From NCBI GenBank assembly GCA_001873365.1, contig MNYZ01000058.1:1-49338 (forward strand): a stretch of 49,338 bases of DNA, written 5' to 3'. Under the pieces are notes generated by a model. That model searched no databases and was not told the origin of the DNA. It worked only from the letters and a program-made list of their open reading frames with translations. Origin of the DNA: Oscillatoriales cyanobacterium CG2_30_40_61. GTDB lineage: Bacteria > Cyanobacteriota > Cyanobacteriia > Cyanobacteriales > Microcoleaceae. Positions 11,975 through 45,843 of this stretch are shown here, one piece after another; within the stretch, counting starts at the first letter, position 1; each line of letters begins with the position of its first letter. The translations under genes and the position numbers were made by a program.

Positions 11975-14900
11975 TTAAAACCGATGTCGATATTGGAGTT
12001 CGGAAAAACTAACGGTAAATAAGGTTCCGTTTTCTTGGTTTAGGGTGATAGTTCCTTCAATTTGCTCGGTGAGAGTGCAAACTAATTCCATTCCCAAGGA
12101 TTCAACATTTCTAAAGTCTACTCCGGCTGGAAAACCGATGCCATTATCTCGAACGGTTAGAATAATTTTATCTTCGGGGTTTTGATGTAGTCCCAGATCA
12201 ACAATTCCTGAGCGACCATTGGGAAAGGCGTGTTTTAAGGTATTAGAGATTAATTCATTCACAATTAAACCGCAGGGTTGAGCAGTTTCAATATTCAAAC
12301 CAACGGGTTCAACATCGAGTTTAAACTCAATTCGACCAGCTTGGATATTATAAGATTCAAATAAATTATCAATTAAATCTTCTAAATAATCACCAAAATT
12401 AATTTTTTCTAAATTAGTTGAACGATAGAGTTTTTCATGAATTAAAGCCATGGAATAGATCCGATTTCGGCTATCATCTAAAACCTTAATTAATTCAGGT
12501 TCGGTGAACATATCCGATTGAAATTCTAAAAGATTAGAAACCACCAGCAAGTTATTTTTTACCCGGTGATGAATTTCTTTGAGTAAAACTTCTTTTTCTC
12601 GTAAGGATGTTATCAGGCTATCTTCTGCTTGTTTGTATTCAGTAATATCTCGATACATCCACAAATGCCCTTGATAGTTACCTTGAATCATAATCGGAAC
12701 ATAATCTCGTTCAACAGTCCGTCCATCAACTAAAGAGAGTTCTTCATTCGTGATCACTCGCTTTCTGCCCGTGACTTCTTGATTTCTAATAATAAATTGT
12801 GTGGGATCGCTAAAGAGATTTTGATATTCAAAGGAAAATGTTTTGCCATCCATACCGATCAGATGATTGGAGGAGTCTTTGATCTTAAATAAATCACAAA
12901 AGGCTTGATTAATTAATACAATTTTGTCAAATTCATCCTTAACTAAAACCCCTAACTGTAAATTCTCAATCAATGTGCTTAATCGAGATGTAGTTGCCCA
13001 TAATTGTTCTTCAATTCTTTTGCGATCGCTAATATCAATCCAATATCCAACTATTTCTAAAGGATTTCCTTGGGCATCGGGGATTAATTTAGCTTGATCA
13101 TACATCCAACGATAGGTACCATCCCGGTGTTGAAAACGATATTCATAACTACAATATCCTTGCTCAAACAACGGCGATAATTGATTTGTAATTCTCCCGA
13201 TATCCTCTGGATGAATATGACTTAACCAAAATCCAGGTTGAGTAAAGTCGGAAACATCATATCCCAAAATAGTCTTGATATTATCACTAATAAATGTGGT
13301 TTGATAGTCTTCCCCTGGTTTGGAACTATAAATAATTCCTGGGCTAGAAAATAGCAAATATTTTAATCGTTCTTGACTGACTAATAAAGATTGTTGAGCT
13401 AGAGATCTTTCTTTTAATTCTGTTTGTAATTGTTCATAAAGTTCAGATTGTTGAATCGCCATGGCGAGTTGACTGGTAATTTGTTCTAGTAGGGAAATTT
13501 CCCAGGCTTCCCATTGTCGAGGTTGACTGCATTGATGGGCAATTAATAAACCCCATAATGTGCCATTTTCAATAATAGGAACCGCTAGTTTAGCTTGGAC
13601 TTTAAATTGAGTCAAAAATTCAACTAAACAGGGTAAAATCTGACCATCGTTAATATTAGTAATTGAGGCAATTTTCCCTTTAATATAATAGCTATGATAT
13701 TCGGAGGGAAAGATTTCTTCATCAAAAGTTTGTTCTAAAAGGGAACACCACTCAGGACTAACAGCTTCAGAAATAACACAACCTGTGTAATCATCGTAAA
13801 TTCGATACACTAAAACCCGGTCAGCTTTCAAAAATTGTTTAACTTCCGTCACCATTGTTGATAAAATAGATTTCAGATCCAAAGATTCTCGAATTCGTTG
13901 GGTAATGGTGGTAATTAATCGTTCTCGAATCACTTGTTGACCTAAACGTTCCTGGGCTAATTTATTTTCAGTAATATCATTCTGAATTCCTAAATAATGG
14001 GTGAGATTTCCCTCCTGATCATAAATCGGAGAAATATTTAATTCATTCCAAAATAAAGATCCATCTTTACGGTAATTTCTTAATACAACATTACATTTTT
14101 TTTTCTGTTTTAATGCGGTTTTAATTTGTTTTAACTCGGGCTGATTATGATCCTTTCCTTGAAGAAAACGGCTGTTTTTCCCAAGGACTTCTTCCTCAGA
14201 ATATCCAGTCACTTTTTCAAAAGCCGGGTTAACAAAAACAATGGGATTATCCGGTTGTCGAGCATCAGTAATCACAATCCCATTACTACTATAGGCGATC
14301 GCTCGTTCACTCAACCGTAATTTTTCTTCTACCTTTTTCCGTTCTGTAATATCCGTTGCGGCTCCCAAAATTTGTTTTGGTTTACCCTCAGAAGTTCGAG
14401 CAAAAATTGTATCTCGACTAACCAACCAATGCCAATTTCCCTGAATATCTTTGATGCGGTATTCAAACTCGAAAATTTCATCCTCATTGGCGGTAGCAAA
14501 TTTATCATAATGTTTTGCTAAGGTGATATAATCATCTGGATGAATTAATTCAGAGAGGAAACTTGAACCTTTTTGTAAAGTTTGTTCGGGCGTATAGCCT
14601 AAAATTTTAATAATTTCTTGATTCACATAAATATTCCGATTTTCAATTAAATCATAAATATATAAAATGTTAGGAATAGCGTCAGTAATTCCTTGAATAA
14701 ACCTTTGACTTTCTTGTAACTCTAATTCAGCTTTTTTCCGATCCGTAATATCTAATGCCGCGCCCGTAATTCCGATAATATTTCCTTCTAAATCCCATAA
14801 AGGATCAATGGTTAAATCATAGCATTGAAAATCTTCCCCCAGATTAGTAGTCACCTCTTTTCGCAAACCAACTTTTGTGTTCAACACCTGTTGTTTAAGT

Positions 14901-16744
14901 TGGGTGAGTTGAATCGCATTTTCCCTGGGAAAAAGATCCAAATCCAATTTACCAATAACTGCTTCTGTTTCATATCCTCCCGCCGGATTATAAATCCAAG
15001 TATAGCGTAACTCTAGATCTTGATTAAACACAACAATAGGCGAATTTTTTAGCGTAATTTTAAATCGTTCTTCACTAAACCGTAGGGCGGCTTCGGTTTG
15101 TTTTCTTTCAATTGCCGTTGCTAGAATATTCGCCACACTTTGCAAATAATTTACATCATCTTCACTAAACAGTTGATTTTTTTTACCATAAATTTCTATC
15201 TGTCCTAACTGCTGGTAATTTTGTCCCTGAATCGGAATACAAATTCCTTGATTAACAAAATTAAACTTGCCATAATTAAGCTCTGTTGGCTGTAAATTGT
15301 GGCTATATTTGCAGCTACCAGAAACGAAGCTAGATTTTAAATCCTCTTGATTACCGGGAAGTTGATTTCTGTTTAAGGATATTGACAATAGGGGTTCATG
15401 ACTCAGAAGGATATAATTTTTAAGGGGTTCATCCCAAATTGCTAAGGTGAGAAAACAGTCCTCTAAACTATATTCTAAAACTTTGCAATATTCAATGTTT
15501 AAATTGTTAGCAATCTGAATCACCACTTGATTAATTAGGGAAACTAAATTGGTTTCTGATAGGGCTTTTTGACCTAATTCGGCGATAATTGCTTGTTGAG
15601 CAGCTTTATTTTCTAATTCCGACTCTATTTTCTTTAACTCTATAACTTGGCGCTGGAGTTTTTCATTCATAAAAATTAGTTCTGTTGTCCGGTCAGCCAC
15701 TCGAATTTCTAAATCTTGATTTAGGGTTTTTAACTCCGCTTCGGCTTGTTGACGCTCTACACCCGAGGCAATAATATTAGCAATAGCTTGTAAAAAATTA
15801 ATTTCATCGGGGCTAAAGGTTCGTTGCTCTTGAGAATGAATTCCTAACACCCCAAAGGGCTTTTCTTTTCCAGAAATTAAAACTGTTACTCCACTAACAA
15901 TATGATGATTGGAAAAAAATTCCGAACTGCTAAAGCGGGTTTCGACCCGCAAATCCTCAACAATCACGGGTTCTTTTAGTAATAATGTATAGCCCGGTTG
16001 GGACTGGGGGCTATTGTTCAGGGTAGCTCGCCCCACCGAACGAGGACGCCAACCTAATCCCGCCGTTAATAAAAATGTGCTTTGGTTGGGGAGTAATTCC
16101 CAAATTTGCACATATTTGCTCCCTAATATCTGTCCCACCAAGGTGACAACCCTTTTTAACAGGGCATCTAAGTTAGTTTGTGAGAGGGCATATTGACCTA
16201 ATTCGGCAATCACCTGTTGTTGTCGGGCGCGACGCTTGAGTTCCTGTTGGGCTGTTTCGCGAATAGTGATATTTTGAACCAGGGACAAAAGAGAAATAAC
16301 TTGCCCATTTGCGTTTTTTAAAACAGAATTATACCACTCACAATATACTAAATTCCCGTGTTTTGTGTAGTTCCGATTACAACAGATATTCCGGTTTTCC
16401 TCACCATTGAGCAACCGCGACGAGATCGCCTTCACCTGTTCTAAATCCTCTGGATGCACAAATTCCCACTGATTCCAATGACGATTCAGAAGTTCTTCCT
16501 GCTTCCATCCAAAGATTTTTTCGGCCTGAGGCGACCACCGTTTGACCCGAAACTGCTCATCCCACTCAATCACAGCTAAAGGAGAATTTTCTACGTGAAA
16601 GGTTAACTGTTGATGGGCTTGTTTTAATTCGGCTTCTCTGGTGGGTGGGAGTTCCCGCAGGCGTTGTTGTATCCGTTGTTCAATGATTTGTTCCTGTTGG
16701 TCAAGCAGGTGTTGTATCTCTGTTTCTTGATTATTTTTTGTCAT
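11975..16744 (-). CDS. Multi-PAS/GAF sensor histidine kinase (HisKA_2)
   Basis: This soluble 1589-residue kinase has many input modules. Approximate order: PAS 50-165, GAF 180-335, coiled coil, GAF 385-550, PAS 555-675, PAS 680-800, LOV-like PAS 810-925, phytochrome-type GAF 930-1115, PAS 1130-1255, PAS 1260-1375, HisKA_2 1380-1465 with IHHRVKNNLLVVSNLL (His1392), HATPase 1470-1585. The HisKA_2 type is common in light- and stress-responsive kinases. The LOV-like PAS has GKNSRFLQ, so Ser858 replaces the photoactive Cys. The third GAF has PCLVEFL (Cys1039 followed by Leu rather than His). No receiver is fused; the adjacent REC proteins are likely partners. Confidence 0.9.
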   Translation of the reverse strand: MTKNNQETEIQHLLDQQEQIIEQRIQQRLRELPPTREAELKQAHQQLTFHVENSPLAVIEWDEQFRVKRWSPQAEKIFGWKQEELLNRHWNQWEFVHPEDLEQVKAISSRLLNGEENRNICCNRNYTKHGNLVYCEWYNSVLKNANGQVISLLSLVQNITIRETAQQELKRRARQQQVIAELGQYALSQTNLDALLKRVVTLVGQILGSKYVQIWELLPNQSTFLLTAGLGWRPRSVGRATLNNSPQSQPGYTLLLKEPVIVEDLRVETRFSSSEFFSNHHIVSGVTVLISGKEKPFGVLGIHSQEQRTFSPDEINFLQAIANIIASGVERQQAEAELKTLNQDLEIRVADRTTELIFMNEKLQRQVIELKKIESELENKAAQQAIIAELGQKALSETNLVSLINQVVIQIANNLNIEYCKVLEYSLEDCFLTLAIWDEPLKNYILLSHEPLLSISLNRNQLPGNQEDLKSSFVSGSCKYSHNLQPTELNYGKFNFVNQGICIPIQGQNYQQLGQIEIYGKKNQLFSEDDVNYLQSVANILATAIERKQTEAALRFSEERFKITLKNSPIVVFNQDLELRYTWIYNPAGGYETEAVIGKLDLDLFPRENAIQLTQLKQQVLNTKVGLRKEVTTNLGEDFQCYDLTIDPLWDLEGNIIGITGAALDITDRKKAELELQESQRFIQGITDAIPNILYIYDLIENRNIYVNQEIIKILGYTPEQTLQKGSSFLSELIHPDDYITLAKHYDKFATANEDEIFEFEYRIKDIQGNWHWLVSRDTIFARTSEGKPKQILGAATDITERKKVEEKLRLSERAIAYSSNGIVITDARQPDNPIVFVNPAFEKVTGYSEEEVLGKNSRFLQGKDHNQPELKQIKTALKQKKKCNVVLRNYRKDGSLFWNELNISPIYDQEGNLTHYLGIQNDITENKLAQERLGQQVIRERLITTITQRIRESLDLKSILSTMVTEVKQFLKADRVLVYRIYDDYTGCVISEAVSPEWCSLLEQTFDEEIFPSEYHSYYIKGKIASITNINDGQILPCLVEFLTQFKVQAKLAVPIIENGTLWGLLIAHQCSQPRQWEAWEISLLEQITSQLAMAIQQSELYEQLQTELKERSLAQQSLLVSQERLKYLLFSSPGIIYSSKPGEDYQTTFISDNIKTILGYDVSDFTQPGFWLSHIHPEDIGRITNQLSPLFEQGYCSYEYRFQHRDGTYRWMYDQAKLIPDAQGNPLEIVGYWIDISDRKRIEEQLWATTSRLSTLIENLQLGVLVKDEFDKIVLINQAFCDLFKIKDSSNHLIGMDGKTFSFEYQNLFSDPTQFIIRNQEVTGRKRVITNEELSLVDGRTVERDYVPIMIQGNYQGHLWMYRDITEYKQAEDSLITSLREKEVLLKEIHHRVKNNLLVVSNLLEFQSDMFTEPELIKVLDDSRNRIYSMALIHEKLYRSTNLEKINFGDYLEDLIDNLFESYNIQAGRIEFKLDVEPVGLNIETAQPCGLIVNELISNTLKHAFPNGRSGIVDLGLHQNPEDKIILTVRDNGIGFPAGVDFRNVESLGMELVCTLTEQIEGTITLNQENGTLFTVSFSELQYRHRF

Positions 16745-37183: not shown

Positions 37184-38869
37184 CTAACTGATTATGGGTA
37201 GGCTGATCACAAAGGTACTCCCTTCTCCGGGTGTGGAGGTACACAGCAGTTGACCTTGATGTTTTTCCACAATAATTTGATAACTAATGGCTAAACCCAT
37301 TCCGGTGCCTTGACCGACGGGTTTAGTGGTGAAAAAGGGTTCAAAAATTCGACTGCGAACGGTTTCAGCCATGCCCGAACCGTTATCGGAAATTTCAATT
37401 TTTACCCATTGTTTTTTGTCTGAATCGGTGATAATATCCGTATTAATTAAAATTTGGGGTGGGCTGTTTTGTGGGACTGTTTCTAGGGCATCAATGGCAT
37501 TAATAAAAATATTCATAAACACTTGATTCAGTTGACCGACATAGCAATTAATTAAGCGAATATTGCCGTAATTTTTGATGATCTTAATTTCTGGTCGAGA
37601 CCCTTGGGCTTTGAGACGATGTTTTAAAATCATCAAGGTGTTATCCAGATTTTCATGTAAATCTACGGTTTTAATATCGGATTCATCTAAACGGGAGAAT
37701 GAACGCAAGGATTGGACAATATCAGCGATTCTTTGACTTCCTGTTAACATGGAATTGAACATTTTCTGGAGGTCTGATGTGATAAATTCTATGTCTAATT
37801 CATCAATTTCGGTTTGAATTTCGGGGATGGGTTGGGGATAATGGGTTTGATATAAGGAAATTAAATGCAGTAGACTATTAGTGTATTCTTTAGCATAGGT
37901 GATATTGCCAAAAATAAAACTCACCGGATTATTAATTTCATGGGCAATTCCAGCTACTAATTGTCCTAAACTGGACATTTTTTCGCTTTGTAATAGTTGG
38001 GTTTGGGTTTGTTTGAGTTGGGTGAGGGTTTTTTCTAATTCCGTGGCTTTTTGCTGCAATTCGAGTTGAGATTCCTGTAAAATATAGGTATCCTGTTCAA
38101 TTTTTTCAGCCATTTGATCAAAAGCCGCAGAAATTTGAGCTAATTCGTCTGACCCTTCTAGGCGGCTGCGATCGCTTAAATTTCCTTGGGCTAAATTCTG
38201 ACTCACTAATACTAACCGCGAGACTCGTTTGGTTAAAGTCAATTCAAAAAATAACCAGAGCAATAAACAAATAATCAGCACCACTCCATTCATTTGTAAA
38301 GAGCGGTTTAAGGCATCTTGATAGGCTAGTTTTTTGGTTTGAGTCAGATCATAAATTGATACTAAAGTTCCCACTTGAGGACGTAATTGATTGGGTTTTG
38401 GGGGAAGTATGACCGGGGTAATCACCTTTAAAGTTTGCCGATCATCAGACCATTCTTTTTCTTGAATCCTAGTTTTCCTAACCCGTTGAATTTGGGAATA
38501 AAAAGGGGAAAGATTCGTATTAATAAGCGATTTTTGTTTTAATTGATAGTCTTTGGAAACAAGAATAAGATTATTTTCATCCAGAAAAGCTAATAATTTT
38601 AAATTGGTTTCTTCTCCCATTTCACCAATCACCAACTTTGCCCCATCTAAACTCGCATTATCAATATTAACCCGTCGAAAAATAAATTCTAAAAGGGTAA
38701 CGGTTTTTTCACTATAAAAGTCCGCCTGTTCCAAAATTCTATTTTCCTGACGTTTATAGGTTTCTTGTGCTTCTGTTATAAAACTATAGAAACCTAGTCC
38801 ACTACTTAAAAATAGAAGTAAACAGGGAATAGTAACGCGCAGAGGTAAACGAAAAGCTAAATTTCTCAT
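37184..38869 (-). CDS. Membrane histidine kinase with periplasmic sensor and HAMP
   Basis: This 561-residue protein has TM1 at about 12-31, a periplasmic region of about 160 residues of no recognised family, TM2 at about 192-212 (GVVLIICLLLWLFFELTL), HAMP (about 213-265), a coiled coil, HisKA with AGIAHEINNPVSFIFGN (His310), and HATPase_c (IFINAIDALE, GTGMGLAISYQ). No receiver is fused. It is downstream of, and in the same direction as, a solute-binding lipoprotein and a hybrid kinase, so the periplasmic domain may read that lipoprotein. The kinase core resembles that of the ethylene-type kinase. Confidence 0.9.
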   Translation of the reverse strand: MRNLAFRLPLRVTIPCLLLFLSSGLGFYSFITEAQETYKRQENRILEQADFYSEKTVTLLEFIFRRVNIDNASLDGAKLVIGEMGEETNLKLLAFLDENNLILVSKDYQLKQKSLINTNLSPFYSQIQRVRKTRIQEKEWSDDRQTLKVITPVILPPKPNQLRPQVGTLVSIYDLTQTKKLAYQDALNRSLQMNGVVLIICLLLWLFFELTLTKRVSRLVLVSQNLAQGNLSDRSRLEGSDELAQISAAFDQMAEKIEQDTYILQESQLELQQKATELEKTLTQLKQTQTQLLQSEKMSSLGQLVAGIAHEINNPVSFIFGNITYAKEYTNSLLHLISLYQTHYPQPIPEIQTEIDELDIEFITSDLQKMFNSMLTGSQRIADIVQSLRSFSRLDESDIKTVDLHENLDNTLMILKHRLKAQGSRPEIKIIKNYGNIRLINCYVGQLNQVFMNIFINAIDALETVPQNSPPQILINTDIITDSDKKQWVKIEISDNGSGMAETVRSRIFEPFFTTKPVGQGTGMGLAISYQIIVEKHQGQLLCTSTPGEGSTFVISLPIIS

Positions 38870-39012: not shown

Positions 39013-40017
39013 TTACTGATTAAATTGAGTGACAAAACGAGCATCTAATAAGGACGCAAAATCAATATTAGAGTGGAGTAGTTGCTTTTCCTGCATCAAT
39101 TGAGATGATTTTTTAGCGGAATTAACCAGAGTCGGATCGGTTTGGGAGAGGAGTTTTTGATTTTCAGTTGATGTTAAAAAACTAATTAATTTCAGAGAAT
39201 CTAAAAAATCTTGGGGGTTAACTGCGTCGCGTTTTGCCATAATTTTAGCTGCATTTTCCGGTTCCTTTTTTAAATATTCTAAGGCCATAAACCAACCTTT
39301 AATTAACTGTTCTAAATCCTGGGAATGAGTTTCTAAGATATCCTGACGCACCACCAACATATACACCACTTCCCCTAATATTTGACTACTATCAAATAAA
39401 ATATTACCTCCCATAGCAATTAACTGAGACAGAACAGGTTCAAAGGTCACCAGGGCATCTACTTCATCCTGTTGAAATGCCGATTCATGTTCTGGATATC
39501 TCAGGGAAATTACAGTAATATCCTGCACAGAAAGTCCAGCTTTATCGAGTCCCCGACTGAGCATATAAGCCCCTAAAGCGGTGTTTTCTACCCCGACTCT
39601 TTTTCCTTTAATATCTGATAGGGTTTTTAACTCCGGTTTCCCGATAATCACATCCCCACCATTGGATAAATCTGTTAACAGAATCACCCGAACTTCTGGA
39701 AAGGTTTCCGCAAACATTAAAGTTTCATCAATGGTCATCCCTCCCCCTTGTAAATTCCCATTTCGCATCCCACGACTGACTTCCGTGGTGGAGGGGTAAT
39801 CAACAATATCAATCGCACTATTTTGATAGTAACCTAACTCCTCGGCTAAATAAAAAGGGGCAAAACCTGGCCAACTATTAATCCCAATTAATAAAGGAGT
39901 TGTGGGTGGCTTAAAACAACCGACTAATATTCCTAAACCCATACAGATTAAGATTCCCAGGGAAAAGAAATAGATTAATTTTCGGGATTTTATGGACGGA
40001 ATTTTATGATTGTTCAT
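39013..40017 (-). CDS. NMT1/SsuA-type solute-binding lipoprotein
   Basis: This 334-residue protein has an N-terminal membrane segment (14-33) ending in lipobox LVGC with Cys34, so it is a lipoprotein on the outer face of the plasma membrane. The body is an ABC-type periplasmic-binding fold of the nitrate/sulfonate/taurine/thiamine-precursor class: LIGINSWPGFAPFYLAEELG, TIDETLMFAETFPEVRV, LSDIKGKRVGVENTALGAYML, VDALVTFEPVLSQL. No permease or ATPase gene is adjacent. Its start overlaps the 3' end of the hybrid kinase gene by 14 bases, and a membrane kinase follows, so a sensory role is more likely than transport. Ligand unknown. Confidence 0.9.
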   Translation of the reverse strand: MNNHKIPSIKSRKLIYFFSLGILICMGLGILVGCFKPPTTPLLIGINSWPGFAPFYLAEELGYYQNSAIDIVDYPSTTEVSRGMRNGNLQGGGMTIDETLMFAETFPEVRVILLTDLSNGGDVIIGKPELKTLSDIKGKRVGVENTALGAYMLSRGLDKAGLSVQDITVISLRYPEHESAFQQDEVDALVTFEPVLSQLIAMGGNILFDSSQILGEVVYMLVVRQDILETHSQDLEQLIKGWFMALEYLKKEPENAAKIMAKRDAVNPQDFLDSLKLISFLTSTENQKLLSQTDPTLVNSAKKSSQLMQEKQLLHSNIDFASLLDARFVTQFNQ

Positions 40018-43000
40018 ACAAAAAACTCTGAATTAGCTGAACTAACTGTCGAATTTGTACGGGTTTAGCCAGATATTCATTCGCTCCGGCGGCTAAACAT
40101 TTTTCCCTGTCTCCAGCCATGGCAAAAGCAGTTAGGGCAATGATCGGTAGGTTAGCCCGTTGTGGGTTAGACCGAATCTGGCGCATGGCTTCTAAACCAT
40201 CCATTTCCGGCATAGAAATATCCATTAGAATCAAATCTGGATGCAAACTGTCCGCTTTTTGAACTGCTTCGATCCCGTTTTTAGCCACTTCCAGATCAAA
40301 TCCCTTCGCCTGTAGGTAGTTAAGCAGGGTTTGAATATTGTCGGGATTGTCTTCAGCCAGCAAAATTAAAGGACGTTTTGAGCCCCGAGGAGTGTTCCCC
40401 AACCGGGCTGATCTGTCTAAAAGTTTCGCTGGAGTCAACCTCGGCGATTCTCTCCCAGGATTCCAAGGGAGGGCGATGGTAAAGCAACTACCTTTTCCGG
40501 GTTGACTGTCAAGGCTAACCGTCCCGCCGTGCATTTCCACGAGTTTTTTAACTAAAACTAATCCTAAACCTGTGCCTTCATAACGTCGGGATAAACGGCT
40601 ATCAATTTGTACAAACACTTGAAATAATCGGGCTTGATCTTCTAGGGTAATGCCAATTCCATTATCAATCACGGAAAAATGAACCATTTTTTGATCGAGA
40701 TCTCCCCTCACTTCCAGACGCACCCTCCCACCCTCAGAGGTAAATTTTACCGCATTATTGAGCAAATTAATTAAAACCTGACGGATGCGACGTTCATCTA
40801 CATTCAGGGCTTCGGTGACATCTTCAATCTGATAACTGAGGCGAATATTTTTTTGGTGAGCCTGTTGTTTGACAAAACTTAAACTGTGTTGACAGAGTTC
40901 ATTCACGGAAACTGGAGAGCATTCTAGGTCTAATTTTCCGGCTTCAATTTTGGAGAGATCGAGAATATCATTAATTAGTTCGAGTAGGTGTTTTCCATTT
41001 CTATAAATTAGCCTTAGTGCTTGATTTTGTTGTTCATTGAGTTTTCCAAAGGTTTGTTCTTGTAGGACTTCTGACATTCCTAGAATTGAGTTTAGGGGAG
41101 TTCTCAATTCATGGCTCATATTCGCTAGAAATTCATCTTTAAGACGGGAAGCCCGGGCAAGTTCGGCGTTGGCGATCGCTAATTGTTCATTAGTTTGACG
41201 CAGTTGAATTTCAGCTTGTTGGCGTTCCTGTAGGGCGGCTTGGCGTTCACTAATATCTTGAGAAATACAAATATAATCTCCATCTTCTGTGACGGTAAAG
41301 GAAACCTCTTGATTAAAAGTTGTGCCATCTTTTCTTAAACCAATGGTTTCTCCCCGCCAGAATTTTTGTTGTTTTAACAGGGGAAATACATCTTGTTCAA
41401 ACCATTTTACCACATCTGATGTGTAGAGAACTCGCCAACTTTTAGTTAATAATTCCTGGGGATAACTATAGCCAAAAAGTTTTAAATGGGCATTATTCAC
41501 ATAAATATATTCTTCATTTTTTAAAATAGAAATTCCATCAATTGAAGCCTCTACCGCCGCTAACTGACGTTTAAGATTATCTTCAGCCTGTTTGCGATCG
41601 CTAATATTTTGAGCCACGCCTAAAATTTGTTGGGTGTTCCCTGATAAATCTCGTTTAAACACAGTAGCATGACTGGAAAACCATAACCATTCCCTATTTT
41701 TATGTTGGATACGATATTCAATATAACTAATCTCTCGGTCACTCATTTGAGCCGTTTCTTCCAGGTGCTTAATGACTTTTTCTTGATCATTAGGATGAAA
41801 AAGGATTAAAAAATTATCCCCTATTGTAGATAATTCTAAGGCGGTATATCCTAAAATAGTTGTTAGGGAGCGGCTATTATAAATACTGCGATTCTGCTCT
41901 ACATCGTAGAGATATAAAATATTAGGACTACTATCAGCAATACTTTCAATAAATTGTTCTCTTTCTCGCAGAGTTTCTACTAATTGAGCTTGTTCTAAAG
42001 CCACACCCACTTGATCGGCAATTTCTCGCATTAGTTCAATCTCAAAATCCGTCCATTTTCGCGGAGAAACACAGTGATGAGCAATTATAAATCCCCAAAA
42101 AATATTATTTTGAATAATTGGAACAATCAATTTAGCTTTAATCTTCCATTGTTGTAAAAATTCAATTAAACAGGGAGTAATATCTTGATATTGTTGGTGA
42201 ATGTCTGCAACGGCTTTTACGGTTCTATTAGAATAAAGTTGTTGATATTCTAGGGGAAAAACTTCTTCAGGAAAGTCAAAATTGAGAATTGAATCCCATC
42301 CTGGTAATACACTTTCTGCGATTGTGCGTCCGGTTCCATTGCTAAAGACTCGATAAATTAAAAGGCGATCGCACCCTAAAATCTTTTGAACTTCAGTAAC
42401 CGTAGTTTGTAGAATTTGCTCAATATCTAAGGATTGACGAATCTTTAAAGTGATTTCAGCAAATAAACGGGATTTACGCTCTTGACGTTCTAATTTAGCA
42501 GTTCGATCTAAAATTCTAGTTTCTAATTCTTGATTCAGAAGTCTTAACTTTTGTTCAATTTTTTGTCGTTCTTTGATTTCCGTTTCCGCCGTTTGATAAA
42601 GTTGGGATTGTTGAATCCCAATTGACAGTTGCACTGCAATTTCATCTAATAATTCTAATTCACTGGACTGCCAATTACGAGGAGAAGAACATTGATGTGC
42701 GATTAACAATCCCCAAATAAAATTCCCCTTTTCTCGATTCTGATCTTGAATTAAAATCGGCACTACTAAATTAGCTTTAACCTGAAGTTGAGTTAATAAT
42801 TGTTGATAACATTCTGTTAAATTAGATTTTTCAATATTATCAATAGCAATTTTTTTACCTGGCAAATAATCGAAAGCACCTCCGGTTTTAAAACAAGTAT
42901 CTTCTAAATACATTCCTAAGCAAGAAGTCCAGCCATCTCCCACGGATTCCGCCACAATTGTTCCATTAAATTCTGGATCAAATTCATAGACTAAAACCCG

Positions 43001-44539
43001 ATCACAATGGAGAATTGTCCTAATATCAATTACGGCATTATTCAGAATATCCGTTAAATTCAGAGATTGACGAATATGGAGGGCGGTTTGGTAAAATAGT
43101 CGCTCCCGTTGAACTTGTTGGTGTAATTGTTGTTCGGCTTTTTTTTGTTCGCTAATATCAAAACTAATCCCGACTAAACCTATGGGATTTCCCGCTTGAT
43201 CTCGAATTAAAGTATCAAAAACATGAATCGGTAAAATACTACCATCTTTACGCGAGGTGGTAAATTCTCCTTCCCAATATCCTTTATTGATAACTTCATA
43301 AACAATTTCCTCGGCTAAATTTTGTTGATCCACAGGAACAAAAAAATTAATAACATTATTACCTAGGGCATCTTCGGCTGTCCACTGATATAAAGTTTGA
43401 GCATATTGATTCCAATAAATTATTGTTCCTTCTAAATCCGTGGCAATAATAGCATTCTGTACCTGATCTAAAAGAGAAGCCTGTAAAGCTATTTTAGCTT
43501 CAATCAAATTTCGTTCTTCAATCTCATCTTGTAATTTTTGATTAGCCTGTTTTAAAGCGTCGGTTCGTTCTTGAATTTTTTCTTCCAGTTGATTATTTTG
43601 ACTTTGAAGTAATTGTAGTTTTTCTAATTCTAAATGATTAACTTGTTGTCGCAATACATCCACTAATTCTAATAAATCAATCGGGTTAATTCCTTGCAAA
43701 ATACTCGTGGGAGTAATAATTCCTCTGAGTTCTCCGCGATCGCCGACAATCGGAATTCGATTAATATGGTATTTCTGCATTAACAGATGGGCAGCTAATA
43801 ATGTATCATTAGGTTTTAGGCAAAATAGGGGGGTACTCATTACGGTTTTTGCTTCTAGGTTCCAATCTAAACCTAATGCTTGAAACTTAATAATATCTCC
43901 TTCTGTTAATAAACCTATCGGAATTTTTAATAGTTCTTGATCACAGATTTTTTCCTCAACTAAAATTACACAACTGACCTGGGCAGAATTGATTAACTCA
44001 GCTAATTTTAATAGGGAAATAGTGATGGGTGCTTGTACAACCGTTGAAGTCATTACTTCCTCAATGGTTCTTAGTTTTAATAAATCCGTCGGTTCTAGGG
44101 CATTTTTTAAGTCTCGATGGGTGAGTAAACCGACTAATTTCCCCTCGGGATTAACTAAGGGTAAATGACGAACTTTATGCTTTTGGAGTAGGTTTAAAGT
44201 TGTACTTAAATGGGTAAATTCTGTTTGTTGCAGGGTAATTACTGGTTGAGTCATAACTTCCCTTACGGTCAAATTTGTGAGATCAACTTTTCGAGCAATT
44301 AAACCCACAATATCCCGATGGGTTAATATTCCTACGGGTCGCTGATCTACAGTAACAATTAGACAGGTTTTCCCCTGATTTATGGCTAAGGAATTTGGAG
44401 TTAATAAACAGGTGGTTTGAGATTGGTTGAAAATTGCGATCGCATCTATTAATATGGTTTCTGGCATCACGGTTAAAGGATCTGTAGTGATAGCCTTTTG
44501 TAGAGGAGAAATAAACAAATTATCAGAATTAATAGACAT
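40004..44539 (-). CDS. CBS-PAS-GAF hybrid histidine kinase with a DXCF cyanobacteriochrome-type GAF
   Basis: This 1511-residue soluble protein contains four CBS motifs (1-285), a coiled coil (295-345), PAS (350-475), GAF1 (485-665), GAF2 (690-865), PAS (875-995), PAS (1000-1110), HisKA with ANMSHELRTPLNSILG (His1143), HATPase_c (1255-1370) and a C-terminal receiver (Asp1440 in DLILMDISMPEMDG). GAF1 has DTCF (Cys549) and ECYQQLL (Cys577), 28 residues apart, the arrangement of blue/green DXCF cyanobacteriochromes. CBS domains suggest adenine-nucleotide sensing. GAF2 has PCLIEFL and probably no bilin. The 3' end overlaps the solute-binding protein start. Confidence 0.9.
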   Translation of the reverse strand: MSINSDNLFISPLQKAITTDPLTVMPETILIDAIAIFNQSQTTCLLTPNSLAINQGKTCLIVTVDQRPVGILTHRDIVGLIARKVDLTNLTVREVMTQPVITLQQTEFTHLSTTLNLLQKHKVRHLPLVNPEGKLVGLLTHRDLKNALEPTDLLKLRTIEEVMTSTVVQAPITISLLKLAELINSAQVSCVILVEEKICDQELLKIPIGLLTEGDIIKFQALGLDWNLEAKTVMSTPLFCLKPNDTLLAAHLLMQKYHINRIPIVGDRGELRGIITPTSILQGINPIDLLELVDVLRQQVNHLELEKLQLLQSQNNQLEEKIQERTDALKQANQKLQDEIEERNLIEAKIALQASLLDQVQNAIIATDLEGTIIYWNQYAQTLYQWTAEDALGNNVINFFVPVDQQNLAEEIVYEVINKGYWEGEFTTSRKDGSILPIHVFDTLIRDQAGNPIGLVGISFDISEQKKAEQQLHQQVQRERLFYQTALHIRQSLNLTDILNNAVIDIRTILHCDRVLVYEFDPEFNGTIVAESVGDGWTSCLGMYLEDTCFKTGGAFDYLPGKKIAIDNIEKSNLTECYQQLLTQLQVKANLVVPILIQDQNREKGNFIWGLLIAHQCSSPRNWQSSELELLDEIAVQLSIGIQQSQLYQTAETEIKERQKIEQKLRLLNQELETRILDRTAKLERQERKSRLFAEITLKIRQSLDIEQILQTTVTEVQKILGCDRLLIYRVFSNGTGRTIAESVLPGWDSILNFDFPEEVFPLEYQQLYSNRTVKAVADIHQQYQDITPCLIEFLQQWKIKAKLIVPIIQNNIFWGFIIAHHCVSPRKWTDFEIELMREIADQVGVALEQAQLVETLREREQFIESIADSSPNILYLYDVEQNRSIYNSRSLTTILGYTALELSTIGDNFLILFHPNDQEKVIKHLEETAQMSDREISYIEYRIQHKNREWLWFSSHATVFKRDLSGNTQQILGVAQNISDRKQAEDNLKRQLAAVEASIDGISILKNEEYIYVNNAHLKLFGYSYPQELLTKSWRVLYTSDVVKWFEQDVFPLLKQQKFWRGETIGLRKDGTTFNQEVSFTVTEDGDYICISQDISERQAALQERQQAEIQLRQTNEQLAIANAELARASRLKDEFLANMSHELRTPLNSILGMSEVLQEQTFGKLNEQQNQALRLIYRNGKHLLELINDILDLSKIEAGKLDLECSPVSVNELCQHSLSFVKQQAHQKNIRLSYQIEDVTEALNVDERRIRQVLINLLNNAVKFTSEGGRVRLEVRGDLDQKMVHFSVIDNGIGITLEDQARLFQVFVQIDSRLSRRYEGTGLGLVLVKKLVEMHGGTVSLDSQPGKGSCFTIALPWNPGRESPRLTPAKLLDRSARLGNTPRGSKRPLILLAEDNPDNIQTLLNYLQAKGFDLEVAKNGIEAVQKADSLHPDLILMDISMPEMDGLEAMRQIRSNPQRANLPIIALTAFAMAGDREKCLAAGANEYLAKPVQIRQLVQLIQSFLYEQS

Positions 44540-44553
44540 AAAATTAAGATTTT

Positions 44554-44629
44554 GGGAATGGGTAATGGGTAATGGGGAATGGGGAATGGGGAATGGGGAA
44601 TGGGTAATGGGTAATGGGTAATGGGTAAT
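44554..44629 (+). repeat. Heptameric repeat array AATGGGG/AATGGGT
   Basis: About eleven 7-base units of AATGGGG or AATGGGT lie in the region upstream of the hybrid kinase. They are of the type of cyanobacterial short tandem repeats. Confidence 0.95.
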
Positions 44630-44733
44630 AAACTGTCAACTGTTAACTGTTAACTGTTAACTGTTAACTGATGACTGATGACTGATGACTGTTAACTGTT
44701 AACTGATGACTGATGACTGATGACTGATGACTG
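44630..44733 (+). repeat. Heptameric repeat array TTAACTG/ATGACTG
   Basis: About fourteen 7-base units, alternating blocks of TTAACTG and ATGACTG, abut the GGGG heptads and run up to the 3' end of the REC-kinase gene. Confidence 0.95.
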
Positions 44734-44742
44734 ATTTACTGA

Positions 44743-45843
44743 TTATTCTGCTTTTAATTCAATCGTAAAAATCGATCCTTGGGGTTGGTTATCCCGAATA
44801 TAAAGACAACCAGAATGGGCGTCAATCACCATTTTACAAAAGGCTAATCCTAATCCGATTTGAGCCACATCTTCAAAGCGTTGACCGGTTTCATATTTTT
44901 TAAAAATACTTTCCTTGAGTTCGTCTTTCACTCCTTTTCCTGAATCTTGAACATGAACTTTAACCGTATTTGTATTAACTGGATATTCAACTTCTATTAA
45001 AATTTCACTATCTGAAGGAGAGAATTTAATCCCATTATCGAGTAAATTTTCAATGACTCGCTTAATTAAATCAGCATCGGCAATTACTAACCGTTTTGCT
45101 GGAGGAATTTTAGCATTAATCTTAATTTGCTTTTTGATAATTTGGGCTTCAAATTCATTGATAACGGTTTCAACTATCAAGGAAAGATTAACAGGTTTAG
45201 GATTCAGTAATTCCTTGCCTGATTCTAGTTTAGCCATCAACAGTAAAGAATTAATCAGATTATTTAACTGTCTTCCTGAGTGAGCAATTTGATGGATTTT
45301 GTGGGCTTGTTTTTCTGTTAAATCTGTTAGGGCTAGTAGTTCACAAGATAATGAAATTACAAAGACTGGATTTCTCAGATCGTGAACGATGGAATAGGCC
45401 ATATCCTCACGCAATTGTAGCAACTGTTCTAGTTTTTGTTGAGACTTTTCTAACTGATCATGCTGTTTTTTGAGTCGGAGCATGGAACGAACTCTAGCTC
45501 TAACTTCTAAGGCACTAACCGGTTTTCCGATAAAATCTTCCGCCCCAGCTTCTAAACATTGAGCTAAGGTTTCTTTAGAATTAAGTGCTGTGATCATAAT
45601 AATAGGAATCGGTTTCCATTTGGGAATTTGTTTGATTTTCCGACAAATATCCATGCCATTACTATCGGGCATCATCACATCTAATAAAATCAGATCTGGC
45701 AAACTTGATTCTAAGAATTTAAACACCTCAAATCCATTGGAAGCATAATGTAATTGATATCCTTCTCGGAATAATATCCCTTCAAAAACATCAAAAACAT
45801 CTGGTTCATCATCCACAATTAAAATTGAATTATACTTGCCCAT
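44743..45843 (-). CDS. Response regulator-histidine kinase (REC-HisKA-HATPase)
   Basis: This 366-residue protein has a receiver at 1-125 (D11-D12, phosphoacceptor Asp55 in DLILLDVMMPDSNG, Lys in FIGKPVSA), a coiled coil, HisKA with YSIVHDLRNPVFVISL, and HATPase_c (VIENLLDNGIKFSPSD, DSGKGV, GLGLAFCKMVIDAH). It is soluble and resembles the other REC-kinases here. It lies 18 bases after lnt and may be cotranscribed with it. A 200-base block of heptad repeats separates it from the hybrid kinase downstream. Confidence 0.92.
   Translation of the reverse strand: MGKYNSILIVDDEPDVFDVFEGILFREGYQLHYASNGFEVFKFLESSLPDLILLDVMMPDSNGMDICRKIKQIPKWKPIPIIMITALNSKETLAQCLEAGAEDFIGKPVSALEVRARVRSMLRLKKQHDQLEKSQQKLEQLLQLREDMAYSIVHDLRNPVFVISLSCELLALTDLTEKQAHKIHQIAHSGRQLNNLINSLLLMAKLESGKELLNPKPVNLSLIVETVINEFEAQIIKKQIKINAKIPPAKRLVIADADLIKRVIENLLDNGIKFSPSDSEILIEVEYPVNTNTVKVHVQDSGKGVKDELKESIFKKYETGQRFEDVAQIGLGLAFCKMVIDAHSGCLYIRDNQPQGSIFTIELKAE

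Follow-up and report, generated by a model that had tools for sequence, protein, structure and literature searches.

RcaE and CcaS, two cyanobacteriochromes with which the protein described here can be compared, have a Cys-Leu pair in common and carry a protochromic triad, as stated in an excerpt of PMC9415938, and the layout of CcaS is given in part of PMC5121610 as TM-GAF-L1-PAS-PAS-L2-HK (HK, histidine kinase). Domains of the DXCF type, as in TePixJ, bind phycocyanobilin, convert it to phycoviolobilin and use a second cysteine that acts at C10 (excerpt of PMC11284453), and SesA (Tlr0924), another DXCF protein, is listed as a diguanylate cyclase in PMC8846402. For CcaS, values of 535 and 672 nm are given in PMC12461855. 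Here, we analyzed a gene for a hybrid sensor kinase on contig MNYZ01000058.1 of Oscillatoriales cyanobacterium CG2_30_40_61; the window is the stretch from position 1 to 49,338 of this contig, all coordinates refer to it, and the kinase gene lies on its minus strand (Table 1). The product is quite probably a hybrid histidine kinase with two cyanobacteriochrome GAF domains, one of the DXCF type (GAF1) and one of the RcaE type (GAF2), with CBS input and a probable link to a periplasmic solute. Its component parts are of known kinds as far as their sequences tell; less ordinary is their predicted combination in a kinase that begins with CBS repeats and has a DXCF GAF next to one of the RcaE type, and whose gene stands in a conserved cassette together with a putative solute-sensing pair.

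Pfam assigned to the 1511-residue protein CBS repeats, three PAS_9 stretches, two GAF stretches, HisKA, HATPase and a receiver. For conservation, we compared 12 proteins, which were every match of one homologue search (79 genomes, E ≤ 1e-100), none of them picked by motif residues: the window kinase, six same-genus orthologues, three same-genus paralogues, and two proteins of other genera of the same order. The genus is Planktothrix. Below, "seven orthologues" means the window kinase and its six same-genus orthologues. In the PDB, GAF2 matched RcaE (E = 2.3e-62), to which it is 55.4% identical over 175 columns, as compared with 37.6% for PPHK, 32.7% for the miRFP670nano chain (derived from NpR3784) and 30.1% for TePixJ. 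In a tree of 76 GAF domains, in which the reference set included RcaE and not CcaS, GAF2 and RcaE formed a starred clade (99/98) of 11 rows together with the GAF2s of the six orthologues and three paralogues. We take the protochromic triad of RcaE to be E217, L249 and K261. In the RcaE chain, the cysteine and the lysine lie 31 and 44 residues past the glutamate, and the leucine directly follows the cysteine; E759, C790, L791 and K803 of GAF2 have the same offsets, and all four are kept in the seven orthologues. The AlphaFold2 model of GAF2 (17 rows) had a pLDDT of 84.4 and a pTM of 0.81. Moreover, GAF2 was the best RcaE match in all seven same-genus genomes that have the kinase (53–58% identity), with other matches at 49% or less (10 genomes, E ≤ 1e-35). 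In the window kinase, the order GAF-PAS-PAS-HK also resembles that of CcaS (PMC5121610, in part), but CBS repeats, a PAS domain and a DXCF GAF are added in front and a receiver at the end. The likeness of GAF2 to RcaE is a stronger signal than that of GAF1 to its relatives. A preliminary description of this DNA, made from the sequence alone, had overlooked it: it described a DXCF GAF in a CBS-containing hybrid kinase, and omitted both the second bilin-type GAF directly after GAF1 and the neighboring solute-sensing pair.

What that description did report holds for the most part. The sequence, the place in the tree and the Pfam domains support a DXCF-type cyanobacteriochrome GAF in such a kinase, and both translation and coordinates confirmed the DTCF motif with C549 and a canonical cysteine, C577, 28 residues further on, which is the spacing found in the TePixJ chain. 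A D-x-C-F motif with a cysteine 28 residues on did not occur in any of 2000 shuffles of the kinase protein. D547, C549, F550 and C577 are each invariant in the 12 aligned proteins, and C577 aligns with the bilin-attachment cysteine of TePixJ. The closest solved relatives by sequence were PPHK (1.3e-40), miRFP670nano (6mgh; 2.8e-33), RcaE (6.3e-32) and TePixJ (3vv4; 1.2e-31), the last with 45% identity over 138 residues. In the tree, 33 rows that include GAF1 and TePixJ form a clade whose support (94/85) stays under the star level, and the references AnPixJg2, NpR6012g4 and Slr1393g3 sit in a different clade. The AlphaFold2 model of GAF1 (28 rows) had a mean pLDDT of 85.6 and a pTM of 0.84; the rows of this alignment were picked as second-cysteine GAFs, and their invariant cysteines are not counted as evidence. 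Judged by its sequence, and by a tree position with support under the star level, GAF1 is soundly called a DXCF-type domain.

The preliminary description also took the spacing as a sign of a blue/green pair and Tyr578, which follows C577 in place of a histidine, as a peculiarity, and neither interpretation could be kept. Among 29 GAF pieces of the same genome, collected by similarity to GAF1 or GAF2, six are DXCF, with a spacing of 28 in all six and Cys-Tyr in three; a seventh second-cysteine GAF has DCCI and a spacing of 27. As the spacing of 28 is common to all seven DXCF rows (these six and TePixJ), it marks the class and not the blue/green pair, and the color pair of GAF1 is not fixed by it. 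Tyr578 is where it had been placed, but Cys-Tyr is ordinary among DXCF GAFs: the residue after the canonical cysteine is His in seven, Tyr in four and Arg in one of the 12 aligned GAF1s, and Cys-Tyr also occurs in 6mgh, a biliverdin-binding protein derived from a cyanobacteriochrome. TePixJ itself has Cys-His at this place, and differs from the window protein in lacking its kinase output. PPHK of Leptolyngbya sp. JSC-1 (6oap, titled dual sensor histidine kinase) is a light-sensing kinase, as the window protein is predicted to be, and the best solved match of GAF1 by both sequence and fold, but its GAF has DQYF, with no second cysteine at the DXCF place.

The genome (119 contigs, 99% complete) contains a single match to a bilin reductase, which scored 370 bits against a cut-off of 206 and was assigned as PcyA, and two matches to heme oxygenase. 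It also has 12 matches to phycobilisome families, the six strongest of which are allophycocyanin-type subunits and one phycocyanin alpha/beta pair; none of these six is a phycoerythrin, the phycoerythrin models scoring under their cut-off there (the six weaker matches are not named). From the PcyA and heme oxygenase genes and this antenna make-up, phycocyanobilin is the likely chromophore. GAF domains at large bind diverse ligands, and these GAFs might instead bind a non-bilin ligand, e.g., a cyclic nucleotide, in a protein that is not a photoreceptor. That is very improbable, as both GAFs have bilin proteins for their nearest solved relatives and retain the cysteines for attachment, the triad is in place, and the genes for phycocyanobilin are present in the genome.

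The four CBS repeats are probably a nucleotide-responsive input. The G-h-h-T-x-x-D motif, which contacts ribose, is present in three of them (residues 70–76, 137–143 and 209–215), and the fourth ends in Ser; it is these motifs that suggest adenylate binding. The pattern holds in six of the seven orthologues, with the Thr of the second repeat replaced by Ser in one of these six. The combination of CBS repeats with a bilin-type GAF was considered as a novelty and rejected, because it recurs in other cyanobacteria. Among 386 genomes of the phylum, 25 had a match at E ≤ 1e-70 over the CBS part, the GAF part or both; of 26 further loci, 22 contained the CBS region, and 21 of these 22 a GAF1- or GAF2-like stretch in the same frame. 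By a pattern scan, 16 of these loci have DXC(F/L/I) with Cys-His or Cys-Tyr downstream. These CBS-GAF and CBS-PAS-GAF-GGDEF proteins (L023, L082, L084 and others) are thus like the window kinase in having CBS repeats followed by a GAF with a second cysteine, but the RcaE clade took none of the 30 tree GAFs that came from such loci, which reach about 1.5 kb past the match, so that later GAFs may be unseen. GAF2 was spanned as one segment by same-genus proteins only, both in the 79 genomes (E ≤ 1e-100) and in the 386 (E ≤ 1e-70). Before counting, we dropped repeated pieces and high-scoring segment pairs (HSPs) that spanned no more than 90 residues of the query. The tree left out HSPs shorter than 130 residues and pieces of 125 residues or less; of the 29 GAF pieces from the same genome, it omitted 12, of which 10 were divergent GAFs and the others the copies of GAF1 and GAF2. 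Of the CBS proteins, L023:1652-4051 is CBS-PAS-GAF-GGDEF by Pfam and L024:4729-7299 is similar by alignment; both have second-cysteine GAFs, come from other families of the order, and are possible SesA-like cyclases. SesA (Tlr0924) also has CBS domains, a point that our literature look-up did not confirm: two studies of full-length SesA/Tlr0924 are without the term CBS, and the excerpts of a review do not join a cyanobacteriochrome with CBS domains.

Several observations weigh against this picture of a dual-GAF light sensor. Around residues 553–566 (GGAFDYLPGKK), GAF1 departs from the reference rows, with GKK where these, TePixJ among them, carry GR. The best PDB folds for its model are cyanobacteriochromes, but they leave the class unsettled, PPHK being first and TePixJ appearing from rank 11 onward. 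The unusual stretch, together with the unstarred clade with TePixJ, would suit an explanation in which only GAF2 photosenses, and GAF1 has a structural or dimerization role, or carries a bilin but does not run a dual-cysteine photocycle. We regard this as unlikely, since the proteins in which D547, C549, F550 and C577 are invariant were not selected by these residues, and such conservation would hardly be expected of residues without use. As for GAF2, its counterparts in the three paralogues have lost the glutamate (N, D, N) and the leucine (M, I, M), and Foldseek placed RcaE (8k9o) first with an rmsd of 9.2 over 166 columns, the rmsd to RcaE 7ckv being 1.9 over 142. The CcaS-like order of GAF2, PAS-PAS and kinase is not general either: orthologues L014 and L015 align to the window kinase along their entire length, but in the other four (L016–L019) the best segment stops at residue 998, and L016 (L016:3063-8219, 1719 residues) has an extra GAF_2 stretch at 1015–1171, where the window kinase has its last PAS. 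The orthologue in genome G006 (L019:6934-11703) is without CBS motifs three and four, and the same genome has no second-kinase gene next to the binding-protein gene described below, an absence that was checked. A genome scan with a pattern for the CcaR G-box gave two matches at two mismatches, the same number as the control. A CcaS-like target is therefore unsupported, and we do not claim membership in a CcaS/CcaR system of chromatic acclimation; the window system differs from RcaE and CcaS in that this operator was not found by the pattern, and in the antenna, where no phycoerythrin is among the six strongest proteins. Finally, what ties the kinase to the solute-sensing pair is gene order and, in a related cassette, a gene fusion.

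If both GAFs do sense light, as we think probable, the bilin of GAF1, either phycocyanobilin or its isomer phycoviolobilin, would be attached at C577, and light would make C549 bond to this bilin and release it again, so that the response would be of a short-wavelength (blue) type. In GAF2, C790 would hold phycocyanobilin, and E759, L791 and K803 would move protonation between green- and red-absorbing forms. The two bilin GAFs in series, GAF1 through a dual-cysteine photocycle and GAF2 through a change in protonation, would set the phase of the linkers that lead to the kinase. The PAS-PAS region would relay both outputs to the kinase core and receiver, and ligands of the CBS repeats may gate the front of the kinase. 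His1143 would hand its phosphate to the C-terminal receiver, from which it would reach the neighboring REC-kinase; this REC-kinase may also be supplied by the solute branch. The overlapping binding-protein gene and its kinase probably feed a periplasmic solute input into the same pathway. The domains, cysteines, triad, conservation, gene order and chromophore genes are read directly from the sequence, and it is from these that we infer bilin binding, colors, the sign of the kinase response, nucleotide binding and cross-talk.

Table 1. Features of the kinase gene and its neighbors; positions are those of the window.
Feature	Position	Strand	Basis
Hybrid sensor kinase, 1511 aa, CBSx4-PAS-GAF1-GAF2-PAS-PAS-HisKA-HATPase-REC	40004..44539	-	Open reading frame and Pfam; orthologues in 6/9 other same-genus genomes
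Four CBS repeats, residues 1-285	43685..44539	-	Pfam CBS, three stretches passing independently
PAS domain 1, about residues 353-464	43148..43483	-	Pfam
GAF1, residues 476-655, DXCF-type cyanobacteriochrome domain (predicted)	42575..43114	-	PDB sequence matches, alignment, tree, AlphaFold2 model, Foldseek
DTCF motif D547-T-C549-F550, second Cys C549 at 42893-42895	42890..42901	-	Translation; alignment
Canonical Cys C577 (42809-42811) and Y578	42806..42811	-	Translation; alignment
GAF2, residues 686-862, RcaE-type (green/red) cyanobacteriochrome domain (predicted)	41954..42484	-	PDB match, identity, tree, Foldseek
E759, counterpart of Glu in RcaE protochromic triad	42263..42265	-	Alignment and spacing
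Canonical Cys C790 and L791 (Cys-Leu as in RcaE, CcaS)	42167..42172	-	Alignment; PMC9415938 (excerpt)
K803, counterpart of Lys in RcaE triad	42131..42133	-	Alignment and spacing
PAS-PAS region, residues 865-1115, between GAF2 and kinase core	41195..41947	-	Pfam; arrangement as in CcaS (excerpt); not retained in longer orthologues
HisKA and HATPase_c, phospho-acceptor His1143 in NMSHELRTPL	40463..41140	-	Pfam; motif in 7/7 orthologues
C-terminal receiver domain	40031..40366	-	Pfam; receiver motifs in 7/7 orthologues
NMT1/SsuA-like substrate-binding protein, LVGC lipobox-like start	39013..40017	-	Pfam; 14-base overlap with kinase gene
Histidine kinase with HAMP, putative partner of binding protein	37184..38869	-	Pfam; membrane location by eye
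REC-HisKA-HATPase protein, upstream of kinase, possible phosphorelay partner	44743..45843	-	Pfam; in 6/6 orthologous regions

The gene overlapping the end of the kinase gene encodes a substrate-binding protein whose LVGC start we take to be lipobox-like, and the gene of a HAMP kinase lies 143 bases past it. None of the four neighbors scanned with Pfam is an ABC permease, the remaining open reading frames not having been scanned for one. Upstream are the gene of the REC-kinase, an lnt-like gene and a gene for a transporter of the MFS type, the last two assigned by eye. The lnt-like gene and the genes of the REC-kinase and the binding protein recur in all six orthologous regions, and that of the second (HAMP) kinase in five. 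Of nine other same-genus genomes, the six with the kinase are also those with a binding-protein orthologue (68% or more), and one of the three without it is 73% complete. When the sensor region of the HAMP kinase was searched in the 386 genomes, matches were obtained in 16. All matches outside the genus lie in 13 regions, 12 of which contain a related binding protein (39–50%) on the same strand, within 300 bases in 11. The binding protein and the HAMP kinase are thus a recurrent pair across cyanobacteria. By the pattern used, none of the 13 kinases outside the genus has a second-cysteine GAF motif, and one has a GAF2-like stretch (29%).

A second, related cassette in Planktothrix consists of a REC-kinase, a hybrid kinase with a DHCF GAF, a binding protein, and a further kinase, in which a sensor region like that of the HAMP kinase has been fused with a GAF, a kinase part and a receiver. 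It is complete in L112 (6733-14798) and L114 (7018-15053), and L111 and L113 are pieces at contig ends. In L110 (6611-11810), a CBS frame of 157 residues stands in the place of the hybrid kinase. Both cysteines are present in four of the five fused GAFs, in an ExC(F/L) and not a DXCF motif, and the canonical cysteine is lost in L113. The fusion of the sensor region to a GAF-kinase-receiver argues, by inference, that light modules and solute sensor act in one pathway.

A serious competing explanation, which we hold to be somewhat short of an even chance, is that the window protein is one more cyanobacteriochrome kinase among many, with no functional tie to the binding protein and the second kinase. 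The genome has 30 GAF2 matches, GAF2 itself included (E ≤ 1e-8), proteins with CBS and GAF domains are recurrent, the binding-protein and kinase pair is found elsewhere without a light module, and a gene neighborhood is no proof of a pathway. Against this stand the 14-base overlap of the binding-protein gene with the kinase gene, the occurrence of their orthologues in the same genomes, and the fusion in the related cassettes. Turning to the linked arrangement, we suggest only tentatively, and with more doubt than confidence, that the window holds a cassette seen here in Planktothrix only, which would bring two channels of light color, a nucleotide-type input through CBS and a periplasmic solute into one phosphorelay. 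In the second, related cassette, it is the kinase of the solute sensor itself that is joined to a GAF with two cysteines and a kinase-receiver. The kinase of the window could be the green/red sensor of these Planktothrix, in which no closer RcaE-like GAF was found. Among the matches listed in a literature search on binding-protein and tandem or dual-sensor combinations, there was no such cassette.

Planktothrix is known for blooms. With both GAFs functional, blue-type and green/red light, which bear on depth and shading, would be compared by a single kinase beside a nutrient-type sensor, and the two domains would be candidate optogenetic modules. If true, this would be a testable case of the combination of light color with metabolic and nutrient state in cyanobacteria. 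It would also place an RcaE-type domain outside the classical CcaS and RcaE proteins, in a genome whose named antenna proteins include no phycoerythrin.

A scan of the genome contigs with the single kinase protein gave 12 loci, two of them close relatives. The three same-genus paralogues (L020:4076-9712, L021:2512-7722 and L022:4118-9757) have CBS, PAS, a DXCF GAF and a GAF of the RcaE clade, followed by a HisKA_2 kinase (Pfam, L021). The window contains a second multi-PAS, multi-GAF kinase, of the HisKA_2 type (11975-16744, minus strand). Its third GAF resembles RcaE in having EEIF, Cys-Leu and AKL and is 45% identical to GAF2, but it falls outside the RcaE clade in the tree. The gap upstream of the hybrid kinase gene (44540-44742) consists, by eye, mostly of short tandem repeats of the CAGTCAT, CAGTTAA and CCCATTA types, which may hide or disturb a promoter.

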